64,000 bases of DNA from Zoogloea sp. (GTDB taxonomy: Bacteria; Pseudomonadota; Gammaproteobacteria; Burkholderiales; Rhodocyclaceae). The position numbers and the translations under genes were made by a program. How positions within the stretch are numbered: position 1 is the first letter of the stretch; every line of letters begins with the position of its first letter. This document shows positions 39,397 to 47,773 of this stretch, in pieces. The notes beneath the pieces are model-generated. The model did not search any database, was not told the DNA's origin, and saw only the letters and a list, made by a program, of their open reading frames with translations. The stretch covers positions 1 to 64,000 of the forward strand of contig JADJBR010000007.1 in assembly GCA_016703645.1 (NCBI GenBank). Direction: 5' to 3'.

Positions 39397-41119
39397 CCTA
39401 ATTTCCTCCGTTATCCCGTCAGTCCGAGGCGCCCCTCCTGGGGTTGGGCGCCTGTCCATGGGGTTGGAGGGGGTTTGGCGTCGAAGAGGCGGGCGAGGAT
39501 GTAGCGCACGAGGGCAGGCCATCGGTCTGTGTTCCTCAACTGAGGCGCAGTTGCCAGAATGCTGTCTAAACCCTTGCGGACATTGGCGGTCATGGCCTTG
39601 ATGAGATCGCCTGAGGCATGGGTCAGGGTGACCAGCAGGCGCGCCTGCCCGCATGGTGGGTCAGGCGTGCGATACCAGCGAGCAGCAGAGGGCGACTGGT
39701 GATGGCCTCCCGGCGGGACTTCGGATGGGCAAGCCGGACGTACCAGCTCCACCAGTTGTAGATCAGGCCACGGCACGGGCCGAGAGATTGCAGCGCTCCA
39801 GATCCTGCGTGGTGTAGCCTCCCCAGCCCCACTGGTTCTTGAGTTCATCGAAGCCGTTCTCGCAATCGGCCCGGTCCCGGACAGCCGCCCCATGGCCTCC
39901 AGATCGTAGTCGGTGTTGGTCACGAGGACGGCGTACTCCACAGCTTGACCGGCATCATGGGCTCGGCGAAGTGCAGGCCCTGCTGGCGTGGGCTCCGCTT
40001 GTTCTTGGCCTTGCCCTCGTCGATCAGACAGTCCCGCACCGCCCGGCGCAGCACGACGACGCGCCGGGCCTGACGCCAGCCGGCGAGTTTGAGCGAGGCC
40101 TCGACCGCATCAAAGCCCTGGCCGACGCTCTGCCAGTCCTGCCGTGACCACTGGCGTTCGATCAGACTCTTGACCCCGACGCTCTGGCGCAGCTTGAAGA
40201 GGTAGGCCTGGGCCTGGGATTCCAGATCGGTCATCACCACGTCGTTGCCAAAGGCCAGGTCGCCCCGGACCAGGCGTGGTCGTTTCTCCGGGGCAGCGCG
40301 TCGAGCAGCCTGCGCAGGTGCGGCAGGCTGTGCCGGGCGGCATGCTCCTTGCCGCTTTGTACCTGGGCATCGAGCACCAGGCGCAGGTTGGCGATCCAGT
40401 AGGTGGATGGCACCGGCCGCCCCGGCGGTGGGGTTGTAGCTGATCTCAGCCCGTCCTGATGGCCGTACAGCGGCTTCACGGTCACATCGCAATCGAGGAT
40501 CCAGTCGGTACTGAGCGCCTCCCGGGTGCTCTCGGCCAGCGCCTGGTCCATCCACTTCGCGCTGCGGGCTGGGCTTCACGGCGCAGACGCTCCGCCCCGG
40601 ATAGCGCGGGCTCGGTGTGGGCGCCAGATGCGCCAGGGCCCGGCGCAGGCTCTCGTCGCTGACGATCTTCTTCATGCCCAGGATCTGCGGTGCCACCGCG
40701 TCACCGCGCAAGCCCGCCATGAGCGTAACGCCGCTGACCGTCCAGGATGGAGAGCAGCCAGGTGCCCAGCACATCCCGGGTCGCAGGGGCATTCGGGCTG
40801 GTGTAAGCCATCGGGCAGCACGCCACCCAGCGCTCGAACAGCCCCGAGACCTCCAGAAACTCGGCAAAGAAGGCCAGCTGACCCAGCGCCGTCGCACTCC
40901 CGCCCTCGTCCCAGCGCACCTGAAAGCGCCCACCCGGGGTGCCGATGCTCACCTCCGCCGCTACCGTGGCGAGCTCTGCCAACGCTCCATGGACCGCTTC
41001 GACCAGTGCCTTCGACTCAAATTCCGCTTCACCCATTGGGTGATCCTCCTCAGCTCAGTCAAACCCACGCCAGCACTGAGTTTGACGCAGTTTCGGACGG
41101 CCCAACTAAGGAAAATAGG
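39397..41119 (-). mobile_element. DDE-transposase insertion sequence, decayed (IS1380-like)
   Basis: The ends are a 16-bp imperfect inverted repeat, CCTAATTTCCTCCGTT (39397-39412) and AACTAAGGAAAATAGG (41104-41119), 13 of 16 matching. A 5-bp direct repeat TTCAT lies directly outside both ends (39392-39396 and 41120-41124), a target-site duplication. The 1,723-bp length, ends beginning CC and 5-bp duplication fit the IS1380 group, though the family call is not certain. It sits directly upstream of the dienelactone hydrolase gene. Confidence 0.8.
39411..41036 (-). pseudogene. DDE-type transposase, frameshifted
   Basis: The coding parts lie in several frames. The N-terminus (41036-40701) contains GGRFQVRWDEGGSATALGQLAFFAEFL. 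Next come DWILDCDVTVKPLYGHQDG (near 40500, with the first catalytic Asp) and GDLAFGNDVVMTDLESQAQAYLFKLRQS (near 40250). C-terminal pieces include YAVLVTNTDYDLEAMG and an IYNWWSWYVRLAHPKSRREAITSRPLLLAGIARLTHH segment in a further frame. At least three frameshifts prevent a full product, so transposition would need another source of enzyme. Confidence 0.75.
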
Positions 41120-42758: not shown

Positions 42759-43928
42759 TCAGGTGCGCAGCGGCGTCCGCATGATCAGGGGGGGCGCCTT
42801 GCGGCGCAGCCACATTTTCAGCCCGGCGTAGATGAGGACCAGGGTTACCAGCCCGCCCAGGAGTACGCCGATCCGCCCCGGAAGGCCGAAGGCCGTGCCG
42901 GTGTGGAGAGGCGTCTGCCAGTTGAGATAGCTGTCTCCCGGGCTGCTGCGGGTGGCGTCAAGGCTGCGCAGGATCGCTCCGCCGCGAACGGCGACCCACA
43001 CGGTGCTGCGACTGGTGGTGGGGCGTTGCACCTCGCCGGGCAGCAGGAAGCCGATGGCATAGCTGTCGTCGGTGGTGCGAGGCAGCCCCACGCGCCGCAG
43101 TTCGCCGTCGGGGAAGACCCCGCGGGCGATGCGGACGGCTTCGTCGGCGTCGATGGGCGGGCGGTCGGACGGCGCGGCTCTTGGCGTCTTGCTCTCGTCC
43201 AGTAGCGATAGGGCGGCAACCAGGGGGCGGACCTCGCCGGGCAGGGCCATGTAGACACCCGTCACCGCCAGGACCAGCAGTACCGGTGCACTGTAAAAGC
43301 CGGCGGTGCGATGCAGGTCGAAATGCAGGCGCGCCGCGCCGGCCTGCCACTTGATCTGCAGGGCCAGGCTGAGCTTGTTGCGCCCCGGCCACCACAGGTA
43401 GAGCCCGGCCAGAGTCATCAGCGCCCAGAGCCCGCTGCCAATACCCATGATCCAAAAGCCGGTCTTGCCGAGCAGCAGCTTGCCGTGGATCTCGCTGAGC
43501 AGGTGGATGAAGTTGCGACGGTCAAGCTCGTGGCCGCTGCGGGAGCGGTCGCCCAGCACCCGGGCGGTGAAAGGATCGACAAGCACCTGGTGAAAGCGGC
43601 CGCGGCCTTCCGCATCCGGATCCCGGGCCTTGAAGAGCAGGGCGCCGACGCCCGTCTCGTGCCGCGGTGGGAGCAGGGATAGGGCCTGCCAGGGGCCGTC
43701 GTCCCGGGCCTGCTGGTGGGCGGTGGCGGCGGCGACGAGTTCGGCGAGGGGGCGGGGCGCTGTGCCGGGCGCCGGCGGCGGGGTGCTGAGAATGTCCGGG
43801 TTGAGCAGCCGGTCGATCTCCTGGCCGAAGACCAGCACGCTGCCCGTGAGCGCTGCCAGACCGATGAAGCCCATCAGGCCGAGCCCGAGGTAGCGGTGAA
43901 GCAGGGCGATCAGGCGGCGTGGCCTCAT
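42759..43928 (-). CDS. PepSY-associated transmembrane protein
   Basis: A 389-residue inner-membrane protein with about four helices: LLHRYLGLGLMGFIGLAALTGSVLVFG near the N-terminus, FWIMGIGSGLWALMTLAGLYLWWPG, GFYSAPVLLVLAVTGVYMALPG and a last one near the C-terminus. Between the third and last is a periplasmic PepSY-like domain (DADEAVRIARGVFPDGELRRVGLP). The HRYLG and DLHRTAGFY histidines are the kind that bind haem in PiuB-type reductases. Its start overlaps the stop of the CbiZ-nitrilase gene (ATGA), so both are made together. A role in reducing or processing an iron or corrinoid compound is an inference. Confidence 0.8.
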   Translation of the reverse strand: MRPRRLIALLHRYLGLGLMGFIGLAALTGSVLVFGQEIDRLLNPDILSTPPPAPGTAPRPLAELVAAATAHQQARDDGPWQALSLLPPRHETGVGALLFKARDPDAEGRGRFHQVLVDPFTARVLGDRSRSGHELDRRNFIHLLSEIHGKLLLGKTGFWIMGIGSGLWALMTLAGLYLWWPGRNKLSLALQIKWQAGAARLHFDLHRTAGFYSAPVLLVLAVTGVYMALPGEVRPLVAALSLLDESKTPRAAPSDRPPIDADEAVRIARGVFPDGELRRVGLPRTTDDSYAIGFLLPGEVQRPTTSRSTVWVAVRGGAILRSLDATRSSPGDSYLNWQTPLHTGTAFGLPGRIGVLLGGLVTLVLIYAGLKMWLRRKAPPLIMRTPLRT

Positions 43929-45610
43929 TGCGCCCCCTTGGGGACCGGCGTGATCGCGCCGGTGAGCGGGTTGAATCCGTGTGCCCGGTTCCAGTCCACC
44001 AGCAGCATGCGCCCGGCGGGCGTACTGAAGCTGAACTGCCGGCGGCCTGCCACCGCGATGGCGCTCTCGCCGTGGGTGAAGTCCAGCTCGGGCTCGCTCC
44101 CTGTGCGGTTGTTGACGACAACCGGAATGCCGGTCTCGCGGGAGCGGCGCTCCCACACGTCGCCCGGCCCCATGCCGTCCACCGGCGGCCAGTTGGCCGG
44201 CACGAGGAGGAGGGCGGCGCCCTGCTCACGCTGGCGGGCGGCGGGCTCCGGCGCATAGGTGTCGGCGCAGATCAGCACCCCCACGGGCACGCCATCCACC
44301 ACGAAGGGGTGGCCATCGGTGCCTGCCACGGACCAGCTCTCGGCGCCGCCATGGACGCGCTGCTTGCGATAGGCGCCGAGGATTTTCCCCTCCCGGTCGA
44401 TCACCGCGACGCTGTTGTGGAACGTGTGATGGCGGGCATCCCGTTCGGCAAAGCCGATGAACAGGGCCACCTTGTTGTCCCGGGCAATGGCGGCGAGGGT
44501 GCTCATCCAGGTGTCCGGGAAGGGGGCGATCCAGTCGGTGCCGATGCGTTTGGCAAAGTTGTAGCCGGTCTCCGCCAGCTCGGGGGTGACCACCCAGTCG
44601 GCGCCCTGGCGGACGGCTTCGCGGATGCCGGCTTCGATCTGCGCACGGTTGGCGGTGATGTCGCCCGGTGTCGGGTCCAGGTGGAGCAGGGCCAGGCGCA
44701 GATGCCCGGCGGGCTTGGGCAGGGATGACAGCGCGTCCGGAAAGCGCCGGCTGCCGGGCAGGAAGAAGCCGTTCTGCTTGCCCAGGGACTCGACCACCGC
44801 GCTGTAGGTGGCCTTGCCGATCAGCTCGCCGATGCGGCTGTGGCCGCCGGTGTAGCTGGCGGTGGGCGCACGGGTGCCCGAAACCACGATGATGCTGTCG
44901 GTGCCCGTGCCGGTGGCCTGCACGCCCGGGGTGTAGGTGCTCCTCACCTGCAGATCTTCCAGGGCGGCGGTCTTGCCTTCGGTGACGGTGATCAGCGCCC
45001 GGGCCAGGGCCGCGTCGGTCAGGCGGACATTGCTGAGGACCAGGATGTTGATGGTGCCCGCGGGCTCGGCGCCTTCGATGTAGCGGCCTTCGTCCACCCC
45101 GGTGCGGATGGCGTTGCTCTTGGCGCCCGCCGTGGCCAGCACGGTGACGGTGAGCGGGCCATGGCTGCGGGTGACGATGGCCAGGTTGTCCATGTCGGCC
45201 GCCGTGGCCATATGGGCGAGTTGGGTCTTCGCGAGCCCCAGGCTTGCTGCGGTGGCGGCGATCACGTGCTCGGTGTAGCGCTTGCCGCCGCGCCCGTCGT
45301 GGCCGTTGAAGCGTGCCGAAACCCGCTTCCAGAGTTCCGGGTGGGCGCCGTGGTTGATGGCGGCCTGGCTGTCCACGAGGCCGTCGCTGGTGGACAGGGT
45401 GCGGCGCACCTCGGGGAAGCTGATCACCAGGGTCTTCTCCCAGAGTCCGTCCCGCTGGCTGCGCTCGATCCGTGCCCGGGCCGATACCTCGTCGGGAAGC
45501 CGAAGTGTGTCGGCATGGGCCGCCGATGCCAAGGCCAGCAGTCCGCCAAGGGCGAGCAGGGTGCAGCCTTGCCTGAGGGTGGGGCCCGCCCGCCGGCTCC
45601 AGTTCAGCAT
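43925..45610 (-). CDS. Exported CbiZ-nitrilase fusion (two amidohydrolase domains)
   Basis: The 561-residue protein begins with a signal peptide (residues 1-34, ending SAAHA-DT). Residues 55-275 are an adenosylcobinamide amidohydrolase (CbiZ) domain: TVLATAGAKSNAIRTG, ATGTGTDSIIVVSG and YTGGHSRIGELIGKATY are family hallmarks. Residues 303-555 are a carbon-nitrogen hydrolase domain with the full triad Glu344 (TPELAE), Lys416 (YRKQR) and Cys448 (LICAD). CbiZ cleaves the aminopropanol amide of cobinamide and is normally cytoplasmic, so export plus a second amidase is unusual. The start at 45610 leaves out a spurious upstream extension. It overlaps the PepSY gene. Confidence 0.85.
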   Translation of the reverse strand: MLNWSRRAGPTLRQGCTLLALGGLLALASAAHADTLRLPDEVSARARIERSQRDGLWEKTLVISFPEVRRTLSTSDGLVDSQAAINHGAHPELWKRVSARFNGHDGRGGKRYTEHVIAATAASLGLAKTQLAHMATAADMDNLAIVTRSHGPLTVTVLATAGAKSNAIRTGVDEGRYIEGAEPAGTINILVLSNVRLTDAALARALITVTEGKTAALEDLQVRSTYTPGVQATGTGTDSIIVVSGTRAPTASYTGGHSRIGELIGKATYSAVVESLGKQNGFFLPGSRRFPDALSSLPKPAGHLRLALLHLDPTPGDITANRAQIEAGIREAVRQGADWVVTPELAETGYNFAKRIGTDWIAPFPDTWMSTLAAIARDNKVALFIGFAERDARHHTFHNSVAVIDREGKILGAYRKQRVHGGAESWSVAGTDGHPFVVDGVPVGVLICADTYAPEPAARQREQGAALLLVPANWPPVDGMGPGDVWERRSRETGIPVVVNNRTGSEPELDFTHGESAIAVAGRRQFSFSTPAGRMLLVDWNRAHGFNPLTGAITPVPKGAQ

Positions 45611-45658
45611 AGTGATGTCCTTTGGCGCGATCGCCGTACATTGGGGGAGGCCCACAAG

Positions 45659-45689
45659 GCAAAAGGGAGCCACGAGGGCTCCCTTTTGC
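45659..45689 (-). terminator. Rho-independent terminator of sodB
   Basis: GCAAAAGGGAGCC, loop ACGAG, then GGCTCCCTTTTGC forms a perfect 13-bp stem. The TTTT run at one end acts as the U-tract, and the AAAA run does so on the other strand. It lies 40 bases after the sodB stop and before the CbiZ-nitrilase start, separating the two units. Confidence 0.75.
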
Positions 45690-45728
45690 AGCGTCCTGAC
45701 CCGGAAGACCGGGTCAGGACGGCCGGCT

Positions 45729-46316
45729 TCAGGCGAAGTTGGCAGAGGCGAAATCCCAGTTGGCCAGGCTGGCCAGGAAGGTTTCCACGAACTTCGGACG
45801 CATGTTGCGGTAGTCGATGTAGTAGGCGTGTTCCCACACATCGATGGTCAGCAGGGGCTTGCCCTCGCCGGTCTTCAGCGGGTTGCCGGCCGCGCCGGTG
45901 TTGGCAATGTCGACGGTGCCGTCGGCCTTCTTCACCAGCCAGGTCCAGCCGGAGCCGAAGTTACCCACGGCGGAGGCCTGGAAGGCCTTCTTGAACTCGT
46001 CGAAGGAGCCCCACTTGGCGTTGATGGCGTCAGCCAGAGCGCCGGTGGGCGCACCGCCGCCGTTCGGCTTCATGCAGCTCCAGAAGAAGGTGTGGTTCCA
46101 CACCTGGGCCGCGTTGTTGTAGATGCCGCCAGCCGGAGCCTTGAGGAAGGTCTCTTCGATGGAGAGGTTCTCGTACTCGGTGCCGGGGATCAGGTTGTTC
46201 AGGTTGACCACGTAGGCGTTGTGGTGCTTCGCGTAGTGGTAGTCGAAGGTTTCTTCGGAAAGATGCGGGGCCAGGGCGTTCTTGGCGTAGGGCAGTTCGG
46301 GCAGGGTGTGAGCCAT
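45729..46316 (-). CDS. sodB: Iron superoxide dismutase
   Basis: The 195-residue cytoplasmic enzyme converts superoxide to O2 and H2O2. Metal ligands are His27 (YHYAKHHNAYV), His75 (WNHTFFW), Asp159 and His163 (DVWEHAYYID). AQVWNHTFFW and FGSGWTWLV match Fe-type enzymes. It is a single-gene unit between two terminators. Confidence 0.95.
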   Translation of the reverse strand: MAHTLPELPYAKNALAPHLSEETFDYHYAKHHNAYVVNLNNLIPGTEYENLSIEETFLKAPAGGIYNNAAQVWNHTFFWSCMKPNGGGAPTGALADAINAKWGSFDEFKKAFQASAVGNFGSGWTWLVKKADGTVDIANTGAAGNPLKTGEGKPLLTIDVWEHAYYIDYRNMRPKFVETFLASLANWDFASANFA

Positions 46317-46344
46317 TTGATGTTCTCCGGGGGTTGGAAAATTG

Positions 46345-46363
46345 CCCGACTATTCTAGTCGGG
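46345..46363 (-). terminator. Terminator of xseA
   Basis: CCCGACT, loop ATTCT, AGTCGGG is a 7-bp hairpin. On the minus strand it is followed by CAATTTT. It lies seven bases past the xseA stop and just upstream of sodB. Confidence 0.55.
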
Positions 46364-46369
46364 ATTCGC

Positions 46370-47773
46370 TCAAATGCACAATCCTGGAGGGGTTTTGTCT
46401 GGAGCGTCCAGGAGGTCTCCCTGTACCGGATCGACGGTGGCGGCGACGGTGCCGTCGTGGACTTCGATGTAGATGGCGGTTCCCGGAGAGAGACTGGTCA
46501 CGCTGCGGGCGATCCGGCCGTCGGCATGGCGTGTGATGCTGTAGCCACGGGCCAGAACGGCGCGCGGATCAAGGTGGGTGAGATGCTGTTGCAGGGCGGT
46601 CACGCGTGCCTGGTGACGTGCCAGCAGGCTCTGGGTGGCACGCTGCAAACGCTGACCCAGGGCATCCAGGTCGGCCCGTTTGCGGGTGGGGTCGGGGCGT
46701 CGGGCCTTGAGGCGCAGTCCCAGACTCGCGACGCGCGCCTGGCGGCTGGCCAGGTGGCGGGCCATGCTGGCGCGCAGGCTCTGATCCAGGATGGCGAGGC
46801 GCAGATGGCTGCGCGCTAGCTGTTGGCGGGGGTGCGTCAGTCGTGATGCTGCACGGTCTAGGCGCTGGGCGGCGGCATCGATGCGTCGCTCCATGCTCCG
46901 GCGCAATCGTGCTGTCAGTTGAGGGAGACCCTCACGCAGCTCGAAATAGCCTGCACTGGCCAGCTCGGCGGCTGCGGTCGGCGTGGCGGCGCGCAGGTCG
47001 GCGCTGAAGTCGGCGATGCTGAAGTCGGTTTCGTGACCAACGCCCACGACCACGGGCAGCGGACAGGCACGTATGGCGCGGGCGACCCGTTCGTCGTTGA
47101 ACGCCGCCAGGTCTTCGAGGCTGCCGCCACCACGCACCAGCAGCAGCAGGTCGTTGCCGTCCTTGGTGGCGCGCGCGCCGGCACGCTGGATTGCGGCCGC
47201 GATCTGGGCCGGTGCGGTTTCGCCCTGAACCGGGGTTGGGTAGAGCGTCAGGGGTATTTGGGGCGCCCGCCTTGCAAGGGCCGCCGTTACGTCACGCCAG
47301 GCCGCGGCCTGGGGCGAGGTGACGACGGCAATGCCGCGGGGAAAGCGGGGCAGCGGGCGCTTGGTGGCCGCATCGAACAGCCCTTCCGCCTCCAGTCGGG
47401 CCTTCAGGCGCAGGAAGGCCTCGAAGAGATTGCCGACCCCCGCATGGCGAATGCCTTCAACGCTGAGCTGGAAATCGCCGCGGGGCTCAAACAGGGTGAC
47501 AAGGGCGCGCACTTCGACCCGCATGCCGTGTTCAAGGCGAAACGGAAGCAACTGGGCGCGGTTGCGCCACATGGTGCAGCGAACCTGGGCCTGATCGTCC
47601 TTGAGGGTGAAGTAGAGATGCCCGGACGCGGCGCGGGTGAGCGTGGATACTTCGCCGGCAACCCACATCAGGGGGAAGCTGCCCTCCAGTGCTTCCCGGG
47701 CCGCACGGTTCAGCCAGGACACGGAAACCACGTCGGACGCGTCTTTCCCGGGATTCGTCAGGGGCGGATTCAT
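46370..47773 (-). CDS. xseA: Exodeoxyribonuclease VII large subunit
   Basis: A 467-residue nuclease subunit that degrades single-stranded DNA together with XseB. The N-terminal OB domain has SVSWLNRAAREALEGSFPLMWVAGEVSTLTRAASGHLYFTLKDD. The catalytic part has RGIAVVTSPQAAAWRDV, LLLVRGGGSLEDLAAFNDERVARAI and VVVGVGHETDFSIADFSADLRAATPTAAAE. A long coiled-coil follows, and the end RGYSITR is typical. The start at 47773 is chosen by homology; no strong ribosome site is visible and a start nine codons earlier is possible. No xseB is nearby. Confidence 0.93.
   Translation of the reverse strand: MNPPLTNPGKDASDVVSVSWLNRAAREALEGSFPLMWVAGEVSTLTRAASGHLYFTLKDDQAQVRCTMWRNRAQLLPFRLEHGMRVEVRALVTLFEPRGDFQLSVEGIRHAGVGNLFEAFLRLKARLEAEGLFDAATKRPLPRFPRGIAVVTSPQAAAWRDVTAALARRAPQIPLTLYPTPVQGETAPAQIAAAIQRAGARATKDGNDLLLLVRGGGSLEDLAAFNDERVARAIRACPLPVVVGVGHETDFSIADFSADLRAATPTAAAELASAGYFELREGLPQLTARLRRSMERRIDAAAQRLDRAASRLTHPRQQLARSHLRLAILDQSLRASMARHLASRQARVASLGLRLKARRPDPTRKRADLDALGQRLQRATQSLLARHQARVTALQQHLTHLDPRAVLARGYSITRHADGRIARSVTSLSPGTAIYIEVHDGTVAATVDPVQGDLLDAPDKTPPGLCI

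Follow-up and report, generated by a model that had tools for sequence, protein, structure and literature searches.

CbiZ, the cobinamide amidohydrolase of archaea and Rhodobacter sphaeroides, functions in cobamide remodelling by cleaving the amide of the corrin f side chain, a process understood as cytosolic; characterised CbiZ proteins are usually found in the cytosol, this being their usual state rather than a formal criterion of the family. The catalytic residues of the nitrilase superfamily are Glu-Lys-(Glu)-Cys. Members of both families are joined in one protein encoded in a 64,000-nucleotide stretch of DNA from Zoogloea sp. (assembly GCA_016703645.1, contig JADJBR010000007.1, positions 1 to 64,000; referred to below, at its full length, as the window). 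In the reading that we favour, with moderate confidence, the CbiZ-nitrilase fusion of this freshwater bacterium and its relatives would be a periplasmic bifunctional amidohydrolase that acts on scavenged corrinoids and has a role in their remodelling.

Architecture of the fusion protein

The original prediction, made from the letters of the window, described one protein containing a signal peptide, a CbiZ domain and a complete nitrilase domain. The open frame was found at the stated coordinates and lies on the minus strand (Table 1), and Pfam matches, alignment and a hydropathy script all agree with the predicted three-part architecture. The match to PF01955 (E 5.5e-48, 163.9 bits against a cut-off of 27) covers positions 2-191 of the 191-position profile. 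Residues T136, T160, N166, GTIN185-188, T233, T235, T237 and D238 are invariant in 43/43 aligned rows, ten of which lack a signal peptide as judged by eye, while H257 (42/43) and E262 (41/43) are nearly so; the loss of conserved CbiZ residues, raised earlier as an outcome that would undo the claim of novelty, is thus not what the alignment reveals.

The nitrilase half is matched by PF00795 (CN_hydrolase) with an E value of 1.9e-24 and 86.8 bits against a cut-off of 23.2. Glu344, Lys416 and Cys448 had been named correctly, and a second glutamate, Glu424, completes the tetrad; all four residues are kept in the 31 nitrilase-bearing rows of alignment A1. Among the nearest solved relatives of this half are N-carbamoylputrescine amidohydrolase and small-amide amidases. 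Nine nitrilase-type NCBIfam models for named branches and the Lnt model match it, all below cut-off. A cyanide-hydrolysing role was considered and is not favoured, because amidases and carbamoylases are the nearest relatives.

Signal peptides were called from sequence, the hydropathy script and comparison of homologues. The N-terminus of the fusion carries a hydrophobic core and an AxA site, reading MLNWSRRAGPTLRQGCTLLALGGLLALASAAHA up to the predicted cleavage position and DT after it, and the predicted structure places a helix at residues 10-28 with low confidence. A hydrophobic core was found in all but four of P0001 and 41 related proteins. For L006, L034 and L050 the ATG chosen by the script lies inside the peptide, the signal peptide being readable upstream in frame; L067, a CbiZ-only protein, has no hydrophobic N-terminal core. 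Homologues that differ in N-terminal sequence still begin with a signal-peptide-like start. The cytosolic location of characterised CbiZ is therefore not a trait that the fusion, with its conserved predicted signal peptide, appears to share.

Nitrilases took up the whole result of a fold search with the full-length model, and the CbiZ half (44741-45511) was therefore modelled alone. The model has a predicted DmpA/ornithine-acetyltransferase (OAT) fold over most of the domain. Searching solved structures with profile A1 (E up to 1) gave 53 matches, none spanning the CbiZ half; all 53 begin in or beside the nitrilase half. Among listed papers that pair two of the fold terms, none mentions CbiZ. 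Should the domain cleave itself to expose an N-terminal Thr or Ser nucleophile, the invariant TGTGTD motif would be a candidate region for the cut.

Phylogenetic analysis set the fusions, L065 and L080 apart from ten CbiZ rows without signal peptide (support 99/99), and a second tree, which omits the long branches L085 and L091, split the fusion group from eight such rows (support 100/98); fine branching is unsure owing to long branches. Alignment A2 leaves out L077. The CbiZ of the small Dehalococcoides mccartyi plasmid pDhc6 (L126, 1-3288), which also carries a reductive dehalogenase, joins the fusion group. This protein has no obvious signal peptide, which weakens the idea of an exported CbiZ clade defined by export.

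Distribution among relatives

A scan of genome contigs, which reaches close relatives only, returned 39 loci, of which 33 hold the fusion at full length, one (L058) holds a fusion truncated by a contig end, two have CbiZ only (L065, L067) and three are weak nitrilase-only matches. The 33 full-length relatives exclude a chance join or an assembly artefact as the origin of the fusion. A plasmid origin was also considered and rejected, as no plasmid record has a single place covering 80% of the query. All full-length fusions with a named genus, family or order belong to the Rhodocyclales (Zoogloea, Dechloromonas, Azonexus, Propionivibrio and kin), and a few are labelled only Betaproteobacteria or Gammaproteobacteria.

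Across the phylum, a CbiZ was detected in 17 of 398 sampled genomes. None of the 17 CbiZ places outside the Zoogloea genome under study is a CbiZ-nitrilase fusion; twelve of these were read, and the frames of the remaining five, at 229-241 residues, are too short. Ten of 199 relatives hold a CbiZ, in single copy each, nine in fusion-length frames of at least 558 residues (three of them, G487, G488 and G497, judged from frame length alone) and one in a 255-residue frame. The Zoogloea genome itself gives a single CbiZ match, which rules out a second copy.

Two further loci bear on the autonomy of the CbiZ half. L065 encodes a predicted exported CbiZ without a nitrilase domain, behind two cobalamin riboswitches and beside CbiM/CbiN-cluster genes, indicating that the CbiZ half can stand alone. 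L113 (3203-13734), which comes from a different class of the same phylum, encodes BtuF fused to CbiZ behind a signal-peptide-like start. Its run also holds genes for a TonB receptor, ExbB, DUF2149, a CobN-like protein, CbiK and another BtuF-like protein, which suggests that export of CbiZ occurs in more than one architecture and that the surroundings here too concern corrinoids or cobalt.

Genomic context and regulation

The original prediction had left room for a substrate other than corrinoids. A corrinoid role is supported by cobalamin riboswitches, which 27 of 35 related loci (L032-L066, nitrilase-less L065 included) carry upstream of the gene on its own strand, and by neighbouring genes for B12 uptake and salvage. 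The riboswitch was missed in L033, L035, L052 and L055, and in L036, L047, L051 and L058, where the contig begins 270-4455 bases upstream. Neighbours of the fusion among relatives, named from Pfam matches of cluster representatives, include a TonB receptor, FecCD permease, ATP-binding cassette (ABC) ATPase, corrinoid adenosyltransferase, CobB, an exported CobN-like chelatase, CbiMN, or nrdA/nrdB.

Gene order varies with lineage. Dechloromonas-type loci usually run from riboswitch through TonB receptor, FecCD permease, ABC ATPase and CobA-type adenosyltransferase to fusion and CobB. Six Azonexus-type loci (L053, L054, L056, L057, L059, L060) have riboswitch, NrdA and fusion, followed in all but L057 by NrdB, so that a gene for a corrinoid enzyme sits between those of a class I ribonucleotide reductase. 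Propionivibrio L050 reads riboswitch, CbiM, CbiN, riboswitch, fusion, TonB-receptor cluster, ExbB and CobN-like, and Zoogloea L032 reads riboswitch, TonB receptor, ExbB, DUF2149, CobN-like, fusion and PepSY. The block that precedes the fusion in L032 is missing from the window.

The Zoogloea genome under study has two cobalamin riboswitches, both away from the fusion. One precedes TonB receptor, FecCD, ABC ATPase and CobA-type genes, and the other (L074, 4220-9610; C7:1406067 onward) precedes a CobN-like gene and then an ExbB-type gene. The CobN-like protein of L074 has a signal-peptide-like start and a C-terminal hydrophobic segment, with a frame nearby called DUF2149-like by resemblance only. 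A degraded riboswitch hidden near the fusion gene was also sought, but positions 45300-46700, searched at E up to 1, gave no cobalamin match; the only match there is to an unrelated small RNA family (E 0.054), far under the gathering score.

Corrin ring synthesis and amidation genes

If the nitrilase half removes side-chain amides, cells receiving the trimmed corrinoid would need enzymes to restore them. Of 35 related genomes, 16 have CbiC, the sole marker of ring synthesis used, among them that of L065; the Zoogloea genome, listed as 100% complete, has none. In the neighbouring species G003 CbiC is encoded at C31:80180, near cobB; apart from a 33% tetrapyrrole methylase match, the surrounding block, from about 74 to 93 kb, is without counterpart in the stretches of the Zoogloea genome compared, namely 96 kb around cobB and five others, the window among them. 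Among members of the genus at least 90% complete, CbiC is missing in 3/6 with the fusion and 0/9 without it (p 0.044).

Of the 19 related genomes lacking CbiC, 18 have a CobB-type match, 17 a CobQ-type match and 16 both. Counting the Zoogloea genome, CobB is present in 19 of 20 fusion-bearing CbiC-minus genomes and CobB together with CobQ in 17, compared with 5/11 (the same five for both) among CbiC-minus, CobS-plus relatives without the fusion (Fisher p 0.0036 for CobB and 0.038 for both, uncorrected for kinship or genome incompleteness). CobB and CobQ were identified by NCBIfam cut-offs in the Zoogloea genome, CobB also in L039, and elsewhere assigned from the score class of the GATase_3 match. 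According to a published survey (PMC6461909), 46% of precursor salvagers have cbiA/cobB, as against 2.6% of non-producers. Retention of CobB and CobQ where CbiC is absent would be most economically linked to side-chain deamidation followed by re-amidation. A candidate CobN in the CobB cluster of the Zoogloea genome (L109, 927-4973) was rejected, since a search of solved structures identified a flavin adenine dinucleotide (FAD)-linked oxidase.

The gene and its surroundings

Features of the locus are collected in Table 1. The fusion is preceded by the gene for an Fe/Mn superoxide dismutase (45729-46316), which lies outside the system described here. A pattern scan of 45500-45800 counted zero terminators and zero promoters. 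By eye, AAAGGA 5' of the fusion ATG can be read as a ribosome-binding site. The ATG of the PepSY_TM gene overlaps the stop codon of the fusion (ATGA), so the two are probably co-translated, and a PepSY_TM gene likewise comes after the fusion in Zoogloea L032. Overlapping frames at 39411-41036 on the minus strand resemble what we take to be a decayed transposase.

Table 1. Features of the fusion locus in the window
Feature	Position	Strand	Basis or remark
CbiZ-nitrilase fusion coding sequence	43925..45610	minus (start 45610, stop 43925-43927)	open frame, 561 amino acids
Signal peptide (predicted), residues 1-33, predicted cleavage between AHA and DT	45512..45610	minus	sequence, hydropathy script, homologue comparison
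CbiZ domain (PF01955), residues 65-272, predicted DmpA/OAT fold	44795..45418	minus	Pfam and predicted structure
Nitrilase-superfamily domain (PF00795), residues 305-519, tetrad E344/K416/E424/C448	44054..44698	minus	Pfam and alignment
PepSY-associated transmembrane protein (PepSY_TM), 389 amino acids	42759..43928	minus	directly 3' of fusion
Hairpin and four T, 3' of Fe/Mn superoxide dismutase gene	45661..45687	minus	by eye

Proposed function and alternatives

The data presented above have led us to propose a model in which a TonB-dependent receptor would deliver a cobamide or cobinamide to the periplasm, where the CbiZ domain, in the manner of cytosolic CbiZ, would cleave the f side-chain amide, so that aminopropanol comes off together with any nucleotide loop and cobyric acid remains. 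The nitrilase domain may then hydrolyse one or more primary side-chain amides of the corrin ring. A BtuCDF-type carrier would import the trimmed corrinoid, which a CobA-type enzyme, often encoded alongside, would adenosylate, CobB and CobQ would re-amidate, and CbiB, CobU, CobT and CobS would rebuild into the preferred cobamide of the cell; the cobalamin riboswitches would turn the system on when B12 is scarce. The analysis shows the architecture, the conserved catalytic residues, the riboswitches and neighbours, and a predicted fold; export is predicted from sequence, and periplasmic activity, substrates and the order of steps are inferred. A corrinoid substrate for the CbiZ half is the best reading of the genomic context, whereas for the nitrilase half we infer corrin side-chain amides, later re-amidated, from the retention of CobB and CobQ and from context.

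Several observations weigh against this model. The window shows neither a riboswitch nor a B12 gene adjoining the fusion, and its Zoogloea kin L033 and L035 likewise have no riboswitch. Since CbiC occurs in 16 of the related genomes, ring synthesis is not generally absent and CobB must be otherwise used there. The control group for CobB is small and mixed, with 5/11 of its genomes less than 90% complete; several genomes are incomplete metagenome-assembled genomes, and G032 has a third type of GATase_3 match that was left out of the counts. G013 has no CobQ-type match and a weaker CbiB match than the other 14 genomes tested, which makes rebuilding from cobyric acid doubtful there. In the Zoogloea genome the only CobU matches lie in two frames (L073, 5020-5545; C9:875019-875544), perhaps a frameshift or a pseudogene. 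The Foldseek alignments of the CbiZ model are loose, DmpA-type matches having query TM (template modelling) scores of about 0.41-0.51 and root-mean-square deviations of about 9-12. Known CbiZ is named for adenosylated substrates, and to our knowledge ATP-dependent adenosylation is not to be expected in the periplasm. In one study, Rhodobacter CbiZ failed to hydrolyse cobalamin in vitro (PMC7733943).

Some of the same evidence would also suit a division of labour in which only the CbiZ half acts on corrinoids, while the nitrilase half handles a by-product or some other amide or carbamoyl compound, its fusion serving co-export or co-regulation. The kinship of the nitrilase half to N-carbamoylputrescine amidohydrolase and small-amide amidases fits this division, as does L065, whose predicted exported CbiZ keeps its place behind riboswitches with no nitrilase domain attached. 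We nevertheless judge it unlikely, though deserving of serious weight: the tetrad is kept in every nitrilase-bearing row, and the retention of CobB and CobQ in most fusion-bearing genomes without ring synthesis would be left unexplained. Far less credible is a shift of the CbiZ-like fold to a siderophore, heme or peptide amide, for which one might cite the adjoining PepSY_TM gene with its stop-codon overlap, suggestive of metal-siderophore handling, the many amides on which DmpA/OAT folds act, and the TonB receptor of L032, which scores best with a heme receptor model although under its cut-off. The riboswitches in 27 of 35 loci, the adjoining B12 genes, the conserved CbiZ invariants and the grouping of the Dehalococcoides plasmid CbiZ, encoded beside a reductive dehalogenase, with the fusions all argue for a corrinoid instead.

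Where a CobN-like gene adjoins the fusion, it is possible, if improbable, that corrinoids are dismantled for cobalt, with the fusion stripping the periphery, an exported CobN-like protein of the BtuS/HmuS type freeing the metal, and CbiMN or other carriers importing it. In L032, L038, L040, L041 and L049 the fusion and a CobN-like gene are immediate neighbours, and signal-peptide-like starts are visible by eye in the CobN-like proteins of L032, L038, L041, L049 and L050; the part of the L040 protein that was read has none. L050 combines CbiM, CbiN, fusion, TonB-receptor cluster, ExbB and CobN-like in a single run, and L113 places BtuF-CbiZ together with CobN-like, CbiK and DUF2149. However, many loci carry a btu-type uptake run and an adenosyltransferase, which serve intact corrinoids; the CobN-like protein of the Zoogloea genome is about equally close to the structures of ChlH, CobN and HmuS (353, 349 and 346 bits); and we know of no enzymatic removal of cobalt from a corrin. 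For related proteins the literature points both ways: HmuS, a membrane-anchored CobN homologue, takes iron out of heme (PMC12583661), whereas a Bacteroides fragilis BtuS1/BtuS2 double mutant still frees heme iron, and its authors suggest little or no dechelatase activity for BtuS1 and BtuS2 (PMC6460266).

Returning to the bifunctional amidohydrolase, we tentatively extend the model, in a form that we hold to be rather doubtful as a whole, to a periplasmic pathway of the Rhodocyclales: one exported enzyme would remove the nucleotide loop and deamidate the corrin ring, some lineages would add an exported CobN-like de-chelatase, and cells without ring synthesis would keep CobB and CobQ for re-amidation.

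If the proposal is true, bacteria equipped with an exported CbiZ could break cobamides that have yet to cross the inner membrane, and this could alter which corrinoids reach their neighbours in sludge and sediments. A corrinoid deamidase, if true, would add a new type of reaction to B12 salvage and account for the presence of CobB and CobQ in Rhodocyclales without the ring-synthesis marker. Periplasmic remodelling would then be a new place, and in part a new way, for bacterial remodelling of B12. With no solved relative of the CbiZ half emerging from the profile search, the predicted DmpA/OAT fold would offer a concrete catalytic model for the CbiZ family.

Comparison with known systems

The original prediction knew of no described system with this architecture, and a search of 5.39 million papers for "CbiZ" together with "nitrilase" came back empty; no description of the exported fusion, its riboswitch regulon or the idea of corrinoid deamidation emerged from the literature searched, outside which most subscription papers lie. 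Both domains belong to known families, and their exported combination appears new in the sense that we found no description of it.

The fusion has its Pfam family and invariant residues in common with the CbiZ of archaea and Rhodobacter sphaeroides, and differs from it in its predicted export, its nitrilase partner and its separate group in the tree. CbiS (CbiZ/alpha-ribazole phosphatase) likewise joins CbiZ to a second salvage enzyme, and its model NF038002 matches residues 128-277 of the fusion at 71.7 bits, below the cut-off of 250; the second activity of CbiS is a phosphatase, whereas the second domain here is of the amidase type. The nitrilase half has the fold and the Glu-Lys-Glu-Cys tetrad of nitrilase amidases such as N-carbamoylputrescine amidohydrolase, NitN and the Pyrococcus amidase, with 20-28% identity to solved nitrilase structures in the 50 alignments listed. 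CbiR, a cobamide remodelling phosphodiesterase, also opens the nucleotide loop of scavenged cobamides for rebuilding, but belongs to an unrelated family and cuts another bond (PMC7733943). The sets of TonB receptor, CobN-like protein and small membrane proteins beside the fusion in L032 and L050 resemble the exported HmuS/BtuS modules (PMC12583661, PMC6460266) and PA1922-PA1925 of Pseudomonas aeruginosa (PMC4542158). Unlike these, the fusion loci lie behind cobalamin riboswitches and include a predicted exported CbiZ.

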